The translations under genes and the position numbers were made by a program. 64,000 nucleotides of DNA. Origin: Rubrivivax sp. GTDB lineage: Bacteria > Pseudomonadota > Gammaproteobacteria > Burkholderiales > Burkholderiaceae_C. Positions 5,538-15,562 of this stretch are shown piece by piece. The stretch lies in contig JAHBZS010000008.1 in NCBI GenBank assembly GCA_019635285.1, positions 1-64,000 on the forward strand. Direction: 5' to 3'. Numbering within the stretch: the stretch's first letter is position 1; every line of letters begins with the position of its first letter. Under the pieces are notes generated by a model. That model saw nothing but the letters and a program-made list of their open reading frames with translations. It made no database searches and had not been told where the DNA came from.

Positions 5538-6230
5538 ATGCCCAGCCCGTCCCTGCACTGCATCTCGTCGATGGCGACCCGCCTGCTGCTGGGTGACCTG
5601 GCCGCGCAATGGCAGCAGCGCAGCGGCGTCGAGACGCGGGTCGAATCCGTGGGCGGCGTCGATGCCGCCAAGCGCGTGGCCGCCGGCGAAGCCTTCGACG
5701 TCGTCGTGCTGGCGTCCGACGCGCTGGCCAAGCTGCAGGCCACGGGCCATGTGGTTGCCGGCAGCTGCGTCGACCTGGTGCGCTCGGGCGTGGCGGTCGC
5801 GGTGCGCGCCGGTGCGCCGCGCCCCGACATCGGCAGCGAAACCGCGCTGCGCGACACCGTGCTGGCGGCGCGCGGCATCGGCTATTCCACCGGCCCCAGC
5901 GGCACCGCGCTGCTGCGCCTGTTCGAGCGCTGGGGCGTGGCCGACCGCCTGCGCGAGCAGCTGCGCCAGGCGCCCGCGGGCGTGCCGGTGGGCTCGATGG
6001 TGGCGCAGGGCGAGGTCGAGATCGGCTTCCAGCAGCTGAGCGAGCTGATGCACCTGAGCGGCATCACCGTGCTCGGCGGCATGCCCGAGGGCTGTGCCAT
6101 CGACACCACCTTCAGCGCCGGCCTGTGCAGCGCCGCCACGCAGGCGCAGGCGGCGAGCGCACTGATCGCCTACCTACGCTCGCCCGACACGGCCGAGCTG
6201 AAGCGGCGCCACGGCATGGCGCCGGCCTGA
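5538..6230 (+). CDS. ModA-like substrate-binding protein without signal peptide
   Basis: A protein of about 230 residues with the fold of molybdate-type solute receptors (ModA, SBP_bac_11). Visible pieces are VESVGGVDAAKRVAAGEAFDVVVLASDALAKL near the N-terminus, STGPSGTALLRLFERWGV in the hinge region and GEVEIGFQQLSELMHLSGITVLGGMP near the C-terminus. Unlike true ModA it has no hydrophobic leader from this start or from the only upstream alternative (5484), so it should stay in the cytoplasm. It lies 20 bp upstream of ligJ on the same strand and probably belongs to the lig operon. A sensor or small-molecule-binding role is inferred, not shown. Confidence 0.75.
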   Translation: MPSPSLHCISSMATRLLLGDLAAQWQQRSGVETRVESVGGVDAAKRVAAGEAFDVVVLASDALAKLQATGHVVAGSCVDLVRSGVAVAVRAGAPRPDIGSETALRDTVLAARGIGYSTGPSGTALLRLFERWGVADRLREQLRQAPAGVPVGSMVAQGEVEIGFQQLSELMHLSGITVLGGMPEGCAIDTTFSAGLCSAATQAQAASALIAYLRSPDTAELKRRHGMAPA

Positions 6231-6250
6231 CACTCCCTGGGAGACACACG

Positions 6251-7279
6251 ATGATCATCGACTGCCACGGCCACTACACCACCGCGCCGAAGGCGCTGGA
6301 GGAATGGCGCAACCGGCAGATTGCCGGCATCAAGGACCCGGCGCTGATGCCGAAGGTCAGCGAGCTGAAGATCAGCGACGACGAGCTGCGCGAGACGATC
6401 GAGAAGAACCAGCTGCGCCTGATGAAGGAGCGCGGCAGCGACCTGACGATCTTCAGCCCGCGGGCCAGCTTCATGGCGCACCACATCGGCGACTTCCAGG
6501 TCAGCAGCACCTGGGCGGCGATCTGCAACGAGCTGTGCTTCCGCGTCGCCCAGCTGTTCCCCGACCACTTCATCCCGGCGGCGATGCTGCCGCAGAGCCC
6601 GGGCGTGGACCCGGCCACCTGCATCCCCGAGCTGGTGAAGTGCGTGGAGCAGTACGGCAACGTCGGCATCAACCTGAACCCCGACCCGTCGGGCGGCCAC
6701 TGGACCAGCCCGCCGCTGACCGACCGCCACTGGTACCCGATCTACGAGAAGATGGTCGAGTACGACATTCCGGCGATGGTGCACGTCAGCACCAGTTGCA
6801 ACGCCTGCTTCCACACCACCGGCGCGCACTACCTGAACGCCGACACCACCGCCTTCATGCAGTGCCTGACCGGCGACCTGTTCAAGGACTTCCCGACCCT
6901 GCGCTTCGTCATTCCGCACGGCGGCGGCGCAGTGCCCTACCACTGGGGCCGTTTCCGCGGGCTGGCGCAGGAGCTGAAGAAGCCGCTGCTGCAGGACCAC
7001 CTGCTGAAGAACATCTTCTTCGACACCTGCGTGTACCACCAGCCGGGCATCGACCTGCTGACCAAGGTGATCCCGGTGGACAACATCCTGTTCGCCAGCG
7101 AGATGATCGGCGCGGTGCGCGGCATCGACCCGGAGACCGGGCACTACTACGACGACACCAAGCGCTACATCGAGGCCAGCACCATCGTCGTCGGCGACGA
7201 CCGGCACAAGGTCTACGAAGGCAATGCGCGGCGTGTCTACCCGCGGCTCGACGCCGCACTCAAGGCCAAGGGGAAGTGA
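6251..7279 (+). CDS. ligJ: 4-oxalomesaconate hydratase
   Basis: A 342-residue amidohydrolase-family enzyme matching LigJ, which hydrates 4-oxalomesaconate to 4-carboxy-4-hydroxy-2-oxoadipate in the protocatechuate 4,5-cleavage pathway. The N-terminal [14 protein letters not shown] supplies the H-x-H metal ligands (His6, His8). [18 protein letters not shown] and [11 protein letters not shown] correspond to the further metal-binding and acid/base segments of the family. Length is as expected for LigJ. The next gene, ligK, starts 1 bp after its stop, so the product passes straight to the aldolase encoded alongside. This is distinct from GalB, the unrelated hydratase of Pseudomonas putida. Confidence 0.93.
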
Positions 7280-7280
7280 G

Positions 7281-13611: not shown

Positions 13612-14558
13612 GCATCAAGGTCGCGCTCGCCGGTGCCGGCGCATTCGGCATCAAGCATCTGGACGCGATCCAGCTGATCGACGGCGTCGAGGTGGTGTCG
13701 CTGGTCAGCCGCGAACTCGCCAAGACGCAGGAGGTGGCCGACAAGTACGGCATCCCGCACGTCAGCACCGACCTGGCCGACAGCCTGGCGCTGAAGGAGG
13801 TGGACGCGGTGATCCTGTGCACGCCGACGCAGATGCATGCCGAGCAGTCCATCGCCTGCCTGAAGGCCGGCAAGCACGTGCAGGTCGAAATCCCGCTGGC
13901 CGATTCGCTGGCCGGTGCCGAAAGCGTGGTCGCGCTGCAGAAGAAGACCGGCCTGGTGGCGATGTGCGGCCACACGCGCCGCTTCAACCCCAGCCACCAG
14001 TACGTGCACAACAAGATCCTGGCGGGCGAGTTCAACATCCAGCAGATGGATGTGCAGACCTATTTCTTCCGCCGCACCAACATGAACGCGCTGGGCCAGG
14101 CGCGCAGCTGGACCGACCACCTGCTGTGGCACCACGCGGCCCACACGGTGGACCTGTTCGCCTACCAGGCGGGCTCGCCCATCGTCCAGGCCCACGCCAT
14201 CCAGGGGCCGATCCACCCGACCCTGGGCATCGCCATGGACATGAGCATCCAGCTGAAGGCGGCCAACGGCGCGATCTGCACGCTGTCCCTGAGCTTCAAC
14301 AACGACGGCCCGCTGGGCACCTTCTTCCGCTACATCGGCGACACCGCGACCTACCTCGCGCGCTACGACGACCTGTACACCGGCAAGGACGAGAAGATCG
14401 ACGTGTCCAAGGTGGCGGTGTCGATGAACGGCATCGAACTGCAAGACCGCGAGTTCTTTGCCGCCATCAGGGAAGGCCGCGAGCCGAACGCCAGCGTGGC
14501 GCAGGTGCTGTCGTGCTACCAGGTGCTGGACAAGCTGGAGCGGCAGCTGGCCGCCTGA
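13608..14558 (+). CDS. ligC: 4-carboxy-2-hydroxymuconate-6-semialdehyde dehydrogenase
   Basis: A 316-residue Gfo/Idh/MocA-family oxidoreductase matching LigC, which oxidises the hemiacetal of the ring-cleavage product to 2-pyrone-4,6-dicarboxylate with NAD(P)+. The Rossmann motif is [16 protein letters not shown] at the N-terminus. The EIPLADSL segment and [14 protein letters not shown] form the active-site region of the family. Length is normal. It overlaps ligB by 4 bases and precedes an aldo/keto reductase gene by 2 bp, so ligA through the reductase form one tightly packed transcript. Confidence 0.93.
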
Positions 14559-14560
14559 AC

Positions 14561-15562
14561 ATGCAGGCACGCCGCATTGGCCCGTTCACCGTCTCGGCGG
14601 TGAGCCTGGGTTGCATGAACCTGAGCCATGCCTACGGCGCGCCGCCGCCGCCGGCACAGGCCGAGGCGCTGCTGCATCGTGCGCTGGACCTGGGCGTGAC
14701 GATGCTCGACACCGCGGCGCTGTACGGCTTTGGCGCCAACGAGACGCTGCTCGGCCGGGCGCTGAAGGGCCAGCGCCATCGCTTCGTGCTGGCCAGCAAG
14801 GGCGGCATGGCGGGCGTGACGTCGGCCGACGGCGTCAAGCGCGTCATCGACGGCCGGCCCGAAGCCCTGCGCCGCAATTGCGAGGACAGCCTGCAGCGCC
14901 TGCAGGTCGAGACCATCGACCTGTACTACCTGCACCGCTGGGACAAGACGGTGCCGATCGAGGAGTCGGTGGGCGCGATGGCCGACCTGGTGCGCGCCGG
15001 CAAGGTGCGAGCGCTGGGCCTGTCGGAGGTGTCGGCCGCCACCTTGCGCCGCGCCCACGCGGTGCATCCGATCGTCGCCGTGCAGTCCGAATACTCGCTG
15101 TGGAGCCGCAACGTCGAGATCGGCGTGCTGCAGGCCTGCCGGGAGATCGGCGCGTCGCTGGTGGCCTTCAGCCCGACCGCGCGCGCCTTCCTGACCGGCA
15201 CGCTGCGCGACGTGGCCACGCTGGATGCCAAGGACATCCGCCGCGGCATGCCGCGCTTCCAGCCGGAGCACTATGCGCGCAACCTGAAGCTGCTGGACGG
15301 CTACGCGCAGATCGCGCGCGACGCCGGCTGCAGCATGGCCCAGCTGGCCATCGCCTGGGTGCTGTCGCGCGGCGAGCAGGTGGTGGCGCTGCCCGGCACC
15401 ACGAGCATCGCGCATCTGCAAGAGGACCTGGGCGCCGCCAAGCTGACGCTGACGCCCGACGTGCTGCAGCGGCTGGACGCGTTGATCAACCGCGACACCG
15501 TCAGCGGCGCGCGCTACAACCCGGCCACGCAGGCCGAGGTGGACACCGAAGAATTCGCCTGA
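14561..15562 (+). CDS. Aldo/keto reductase
   Basis: A 333-residue aldo/keto reductase. The catalytic tetrad is visible: Asp and Tyr in MLDTAALYGFGANE, Lys in VLASKGG and His in YYLHRWD. The cofactor-binding C-terminal part carries LPGTTSIAHLQEDLGA, consistent with NADPH. Closest in form to the YajO/GLR-type AKRs that accept small aldehydes. It starts 2 bp after ligC at the end of the lig operon. No step of the 4,5-cleavage pathway needs it, so it may reduce phenolic aldehydes such as vanillin or protocatechualdehyde; that is inference. Confidence 0.9.
   Translation: MQARRIGPFTVSAVSLGCMNLSHAYGAPPPPAQAEALLHRALDLGVTMLDTAALYGFGANETLLGRALKGQRHRFVLASKGGMAGVTSADGVKRVIDGRPEALRRNCEDSLQRLQVETIDLYYLHRWDKTVPIEESVGAMADLVRAGKVRALGLSEVSAATLRRAHAVHPIVAVQSEYSLWSRNVEIGVLQACREIGASLVAFSPTARAFLTGTLRDVATLDAKDIRRGMPRFQPEHYARNLKLLDGYAQIARDAGCSMAQLAIAWVLSRGEQVVALPGTTSIAHLQEDLGAAKLTLTPDVLQRLDALINRDTVSGARYNPATQAEVDTEEFA

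Follow-up and report, generated by a model that had tools for sequence, protein, structure and literature searches.

The protocatechuate (PCA) 4,5-cleavage operon of a Rubrivivax sp. genome (assembly GCA_019635285.1) appears to encode its own feeder enzymes. In the first 64,000 nucleotides of contig JAHBZS010000008.1, the stretch analysed here and hereafter called the window, ten co-directional genes span positions 5538-15562 of the forward strand, with overlaps or gaps of 1-44 bp, and constitute a pmd operon within which lie two genes of the tannase family PF07519 that we name tan1 and tan2. Judging from their sequences, the products would be lipid-anchored, exported serine esterases that free phenolic acids outside the cytoplasm, a reading to which we assign a probability of about 0.6. 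What we did not expect was the breadth of the arrangement in which tan2 directly precedes pmdA, and the existence of a second genomic home for tan2, a vanillate gene cluster of Variovorax.

The predicted identity of the ring-cleavage half of the operon rests on strong homology, the genes having been named by Pfam, NCBIfam and PDB sequence searches. The PCA 4,5-cleavage gene set is complete and includes, all on the forward strand, a 4-oxalomesaconate (OMA) hydratase of the LigJ/PmdE type (6251-7279; E 7.5e-212 to PDB 2gwg and 3.8e-153 to 6dxq/6dwv), a 4-carboxy-4-hydroxy-2-oxoadipate (CHA) aldolase of the LigK/PmdF type (7281-7970; TIGR02798 at 405.5 bits for a cut-off of 304.5), a 2-pyrone-4,6-dicarboxylate (PDC) hydrolase of the LigI/PmdD type (7994-8932; E 1.1e-109 to PDB 4d8l), the alpha (pmdA, LigA/PmdA; 12317-12754; above the NCBIfam equivalog cut-off) and beta (pmdB, LigB/PmdB; 12757-13611; E 3e-123 to PDB 1b4u) subunits of protocatechuate 4,5-dioxygenase, and the CHMS dehydrogenase pmdC (LigC/PmdC; 13608-14558; E 3.9e-181 to PDB 9azo, a PmdC). 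Between the PDC hydrolase gene and pmdA, on the same strand, are found tan1 (8929-10575) and tan2 (10620-12314, with alternative ATG starts at 10587 and 10602), which score 415.7 and 478.8 bits, respectively, against the PF07519 profile (curated cut-off 29.8) and both encode a signal peptide with a Leu-Ala-Gly-Cys (LLAGC) lipobox, recognized by pattern match only. The order reported in the initial annotation, with ligJ-ligK-ligI, two tannase-family lipoprotein genes, ligABC and an aldo/keto reductase gene on one strand, agrees with these family and structure matches. The GTGA said to couple ligI to the first esterase gene is present as well, shared by the GTG start of tan1 and the PDC hydrolase stop. 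A second overlap, ATGA, joins pmdB and pmdC, and only 2 bp separate the end of tan2 from pmdA.

That the esterase genes are embedded in the PCA operon had likewise been claimed from the window, and for tan2 the arrangement goes beyond chance. We scanned named bacterial genomes by alignment for relatives of tan2 (type T2); the shares given here, taken from the best 80 of 285 confirmed loci, describe its nearest relatives. A T2 gene is located directly 5' of pmdA in 40 of the 80 loci (loci carry L numbers below), of which 39 have the order PDC hydrolase-T2-pmdA with 2-73 bp to pmdA; in the fortieth (L051), the contig ends beside T2-pmdA. In three of them (L092, L095 and L100), a gene of a third tannase type, T3, precedes T2, resembling the pair of the window. 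The records with pmd-embedded T2 are titled Rubrivivax, Ramlibacter, Caenimonas, Polaromonas, Hydrogenophaga, Limnohabitans, Aquabacterium, Methylibium and Rhizobacter, among others, and include many metagenome-assembled genomes. With a simple pattern and an optimistic choice of start, a lipobox was found in 32 of the 40 embedded copies and in 14 of 14 from Variovorax, while some embedded copies, for example those of the Limnohabitans group, resemble plain secreted proteins. The remaining T2 loci comprise 14 from Variovorax, 22 from Alphaproteobacteria (20 titled Bradyrhizobium) and four others without pmd genes in the stretch. The possibility that tan2 is an insertion peculiar to this genome was rejected, as the same position is occupied in many relatives; no plasmid-borne relative was found at >=60% identity among 163 matching records. 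One pmd-type operon with T2, in which no OMA hydratase match was seen, belongs to a record titled Cytophagales bacterium MAG19 (L114); its pmd proteins are 76-85% identical to those of the window and its assignment to Cytophagales is likely a binning error.

A search for PF07519 and PmdB covered 61 genomes, including that of the window, and 40 stretches were fetched. Counting the window and 26 fetched loci, the PDC hydrolase-pmdA junction is readable in 27 genomes of the genus. A tannase-family gene is present at this junction in 11 of them, namely T1 (the type of tan1) and T2 in the window, T2 in five genomes and T3 in five genus mates, one of which (L017) falls in another sub-clade. In nine fetched loci a pobA-like gene (at least 60% identical to that of L007, itself a 4-hydroxybenzoate 3-monooxygenase equivalog in NCBIfam) lies between the aldolase and PDC hydrolase genes. 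The pobA-bearing loci are L017 and L020, which also hold a T3 tannase gene, and seven others.

The second home of T2 hints at its likely substrate. In all 14 Variovorax loci, T2 comes directly after the gene for the second ATPase of an ATP-binding cassette (ABC) transporter set of the branched-chain type, and the same stretches contain a metE-like gene (14/14) and a Rieske oxygenase gene with a VanA_C domain (vanA; 11/14), for whose product no NCBIfam equivalog name was obtained. At E <= 1e-40, no PmdB above 44% identity was found in these 14 genomes, four of which have a relative at 44%. A quick tree places all Variovorax copies in a single clade next to the pmd-embedded copies of Polaromonas and of another Comamonadaceae record. 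The genome of the window possesses a similar van cluster without T2 (vanA 78-79%, metE-like gene 81% and ABC genes 68-78% identical; vanB assigned by eye). T2 has stayed with PCA-route genes despite a change of address. Because both homes share PCA and vanillate, its product would most plausibly free these acids from their esters outside the cytoplasm, and the shared metabolites are the main argument for the substrate. Gene order across several genera and this vanillate-gene home make co-expression of predicted surface ester hydrolysis with ring cleavage, as put forward in the initial annotation, a well-supported idea for tan2. More tentatively, and with odds that we place somewhat short of even, the tan2 clade may form a separate, disulfide-free subfamily of PCA/vanillate-ester esterases, regular in many Burkholderiales PCA operons and, in Variovorax, whose sampled genomes are devoid of the PmdB of that operon, transferred to the cluster for vanillate uptake.

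Active-site residues were compared by alignment to the numbering of MHETase, the nearest solved structure by sequence for both proteins (E 3.6e-108 for tan1 and 2.1e-60 for tan2), over 86 full-length T2 rows, four pairs of which are an identical sequence present twice and from which a distant 46% fragment (L153) was left out. Equivalents of the catalytic Ser225, Asp492 and His528 are present in tan1 and in all 86 T2 rows, where the SSEGG context is also invariant. tan1 retains the full CS-D-HC site, and cysteines occupy both its aligned active-site pair and the remaining pairs that were compared. In tan2 and the 86 T2 rows this disulfide is missing, Cys224 being replaced by Ser and Cys529 by Val (85 rows) or Met (one row); moreover, Glu stands for His488 and Gln (85 rows) or Glu (one row) for Phe495. 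T2 retains all six cysteines that form three other disulfides in MHETase, and the first cysteine pair (C36 and C93 in tan2) is invariant in a 50-row alignment. Since the active-site disulfide is usual in the family and not required by the profile, tan2 is kept in PF07519 as a divergent branch. Among 32 non-T2 rows, a Cys precedes the Ser in 31 and a Cys after the His was read in 29, two being unread by the motif pattern, which misplaced the His in some rows; T2 residues were taken from the alignment instead. The single non-T2 row with Gly at both cysteine places is L152. A 42% relative on plasmid 3 of Variovorax sp. SRS16 (L159) also has Gly at both, and the disulfide-free group is therefore wider than T2. 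The L159 gene lies 0.3 kb from a gene annotated as 4-oxalomesaconate tautomerase, on the opposite strand. A recent tandem duplication as the origin of tan1 and tan2 was rejected, as they share 33% identity and belong to separate clades in another quick tree. The genome of the window encodes two further PF07519 proteins, on contigs C13 (L043) and C23 (L042), with Cys before the Ser and after the His; no lipobox was found in them and no pmd genes within their 12-kb stretches.

Taken together, these data suggest the following route. The tan1 and tan2 esterases would release PCA, vanillate or 4-hydroxybenzoate (the most likely products), possibly also gallate, from extracytoplasmic esters, and the acids would be taken up and converted into PCA by enzymes encoded elsewhere in the genome, such as the vanA cluster and PobA-like proteins, for which there are two matches, one with an internal stop. 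PCA would then be cleaved by PmdAB and the product oxidized by PmdC, after which the PDC hydrolase, OMA hydratase and CHA aldolase would yield pyruvate and oxaloacetate, a pathway that takes place in the cytoplasm. In this scheme, tan2 is the widespread operon member, and tan1, which belongs to a different subfamily, looks like an additional enzyme placed ahead of it. The esterase half of the operon is predicted from family, motif and gene context, and both the substrate and the membrane that would hold the lipoproteins are what we infer. Catalysis on aromatic esters is suggested by the retained Ser-Asp-His residues and by analogy with Tan410, a PF07519 enzyme which, in the excerpt of PMC7936011, hydrolyses methyl vanillate, methyl 3,4-dihydroxybenzoate, and 4-hydroxybenzoate and gallate esters, with methyl ferulate as the best substrate.

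Several observations weigh against this proposal. The junction is devoid of a tannase-family gene in 16 of the 27 readable genus genomes, so the gene is accessory, and neither L032 nor L034, from other genera with a readable junction, has one there. Neither pmd nor vanA is in the stretch for 26 of the 80 T2 loci (22 from Alphaproteobacteria and four others); all that seven of these, from Bradyrhizobium, have is an ABC transporter of low similarity (28-41%) at a distance of some kb. The unlinked copies of L065 and L077 occur in genomes with a close PmdB elsewhere (81 and 85%), and T2 can therefore sit elsewhere even in such genomes. In three of the 14 Variovorax stretches, vanA is not in view. 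A second promoter-like site (6227-6255) lies inside the operon, directly 5' of the hydratase gene. In addition, MHETase variants lacking the active-site disulfide were insoluble or unexpressed according to the excerpt of PMC7568301, and since its removal broke MHETase, the activity of tan2 is not to be assumed.

The relatives of tan1 also count against the proposal as far as this gene is concerned. They are found at 61-67% identity in other genera of the family. Of the 43 matched genomes, 18 had their stretches retrieved; none of these stretches holds pmd genes, and a tan1 inside a PCA operon was found only in the window. For this reason tan1 looks like a separate recruit, and we keep the reading of an insertion peculiar to this genome. 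Some relatives accompany a gene for a DUF3237 protein, a TctC-type binding protein or a LuxR-type regulator; these neighbours are Pfam-confirmed in L154 and L145, the remainder being assigned by eye. The gene lists of such neighbourhoods come from a rough open reading frame (ORF) picker that mis-called some strands, and names that were not searched (vanB, the aconitase end mentioned below) were likewise given by eye. Tandem pairs of tannase-family genes also exist outside pmd operons, in L154, L155 and L157, the L154 pair being next to the DUF3237 gene.

Among other explanations, the one that survives best, though we regard it as unlikely, is that both proteins are broad feruloyl/chlorogenate esterases or gallotannin tannases whose acids take longer routes to PCA or gallate, with the pmd site reflecting general use of plant phenolics. 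PmdAB-type enzymes can accept gallate, and conversion of ferulate into PCA would need a feruloyl-CoA route. PF07519 owes its name to tannases and feruloyl esterases, and the preference of Tan410 for methyl ferulate (PMC7936011, excerpt) is in the same direction. Against it stand the second home of T2, where 11 of 14 loci have vanA close by, and the pobA genes embedded in nine pmd operons. Still less probable is that the esterases are MHETase-like or phthalate-monoester hydrolases, with terephthalate or phthalate entering the operon through PCA. PCA is a known meeting point of terephthalate and phthalate routes, and MHETase, besides being the nearest solved structure to both proteins, falls with T1 and T3 on one side of a quick tree, though on a long branch. 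However, apart from one masked row, all T1, T2 and T3 rows have Gly at the place of MHETase Ser131, and no row has an aligned Arg411 or Phe415, most T3 rows being gapped there and tan1 having an Arg one place away in a loop of unsure alignment; T2 further differs at His488 and Phe495. With these three MHET-binding residues found in neither tan1, tan2 nor T3, the polyethylene terephthalate branch is disfavoured, and the part of the initial annotation that invoked polymer-derived, MHETase-like substrates is not supported. Finally, it is very improbable that tan2 has lost catalysis and become a phenolic-binding or scaffold lipoprotein. In favour of this reading, both CS-D-HC cysteines are gone in all T2 rows and Glu occupies the place of His488; against it, none of these rows departs from Ser, Asp, His or the SSEGG context, and a non-CS-D-HC class of feruloyl esterases/tannases has been recognized (Rivas 2019, as cited in the excerpt of PMC8507159). 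The absence of the motif is thus not new in itself, that class having already been named.

Returning to the operon itself, a sigma-70-like promoter match (TTGTGA-17-CATAAT, consensus match only) is located 5' of it at 5482-5510 on the forward strand, and positions 5300-15900 contain two promoter-like matches where shuffles predict 0.3. A terminator-like stem-loop on the forward strand marks the operon end (15561-15582); it is a weak site, as one was found and 3.7 are expected by chance, and the same hairpin scan gave no terminator-like site between the operon genes. No known RNA element was detected in the window at gathering threshold. One transcript probably spans the operon genes. The first gene (5538-6230, forward strand), which lies inside the span considered by the initial annotation and was left unnamed there, encodes a ModA-like protein with a solute-binding fold (SBP_bac_11, Pfam) and no obvious signal peptide. 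Homologues (E <= 1e-30) exist in 32 of 41 genus genomes, including that of the window, and the gene is directly 5' of the hydratase gene in 15 of the 22 fetched genus loci showing a hydratase; a seemingly cytoplasmic solute-binding fold heading a catabolic operon seems odd. The last gene (14561-15562, forward strand) encodes an aldo/keto reductase family protein (Pfam), homologues of which occur 3' of pmdC in a number of relatives, frequently non-adjacent.

The known OMA tautomerase is of the PrpF family (LigU/PmdU/GalD). None was found among the operon genes of the window, and the genome has one match, adjoining an ORF that resembles the end of an aconitase (by eye). Many pmd operons of the genus have a gene for a DUF1932 NAD-binding protein between the aldolase and PDC hydrolase genes (e.g., L007:7337-8248), which is absent from the window at 7970-7994. 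A PrpF-family protein is absent in 18 pmd-bearing genus genomes (G numbers), of which 16 have DUF1932 (G002, G003, G016, G018, G019, G020, G022, G023, G025, G026, G028, G031, G032, G033, G035 and G036) and two, G005 and G009 (73-75% completeness), have neither. DUF1932 may be a non-orthologous OMA tautomerase; to the contrary, ten pmd genomes have both proteins, and the window genome, G006 and G013 have PrpF only.

No description of tannase-family genes in pmd operons was found among the literature matches listed, which are mostly titles and abstract beginnings, subscription papers lying mostly outside their scope. Gene context here provides a testable substrate class for a branch of PF07519 with no solved structure found nearer than MHETase, and the tan2 branch consists of natural family members without the disulfide whose removal broke MHETase. 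Our analysis suggests that PCA catabolism in various Burkholderiales of fresh water and soil begins with ester release as an integral step, and that the freeing of PCA from esters and its breakdown run as one programme, which would matter for lignin and plant-phenolic turnover and for the engineered production of PCA or PDC.

Compared with known systems, the operon of the window shares its core genes with the pmd operon of Comamonas, which has the core order pmdEFDABC. It differs by the exported PF07519 genes, one or two in number, that separate pmdD from pmdA, by the ModA-like gene at its head and by the lack of a PrpF-type tautomerase gene within the operon. The PmdC structure that matches pmdC best (PDB 9azo) is that of Comamonas testosteroni (PMC11489326, excerpt). 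MHETase from Ideonella sakaiensis has the same family and Ser-Asp-His residues, and tan1 keeps the Cys pairs aligned with it, whereas its Ser131, Arg411 and Phe415 were not found, tan2 has no active-site disulfide and both genes belong to a PCA-cleavage operon. Tan410, from a soil metagenome, is likened to them by the description in the excerpt of PMC7936011, not by sequence: it shares the family and an export signal, and its range would yield vanillate, PCA, 4-hydroxybenzoate and gallate, but it has the CS-D-HC motif, unlike tan2. The non-CS-D-HC class (Rivas 2019, as cited in the excerpt of PMC8507159) lacks this motif, as does tan2. In the Variovorax vanillate/ABC set, the tan2 orthologue comes directly after the last transporter gene in 14 of 14 loci and is tied to uptake and demethylation, not, as in the window, to ring cleavage.

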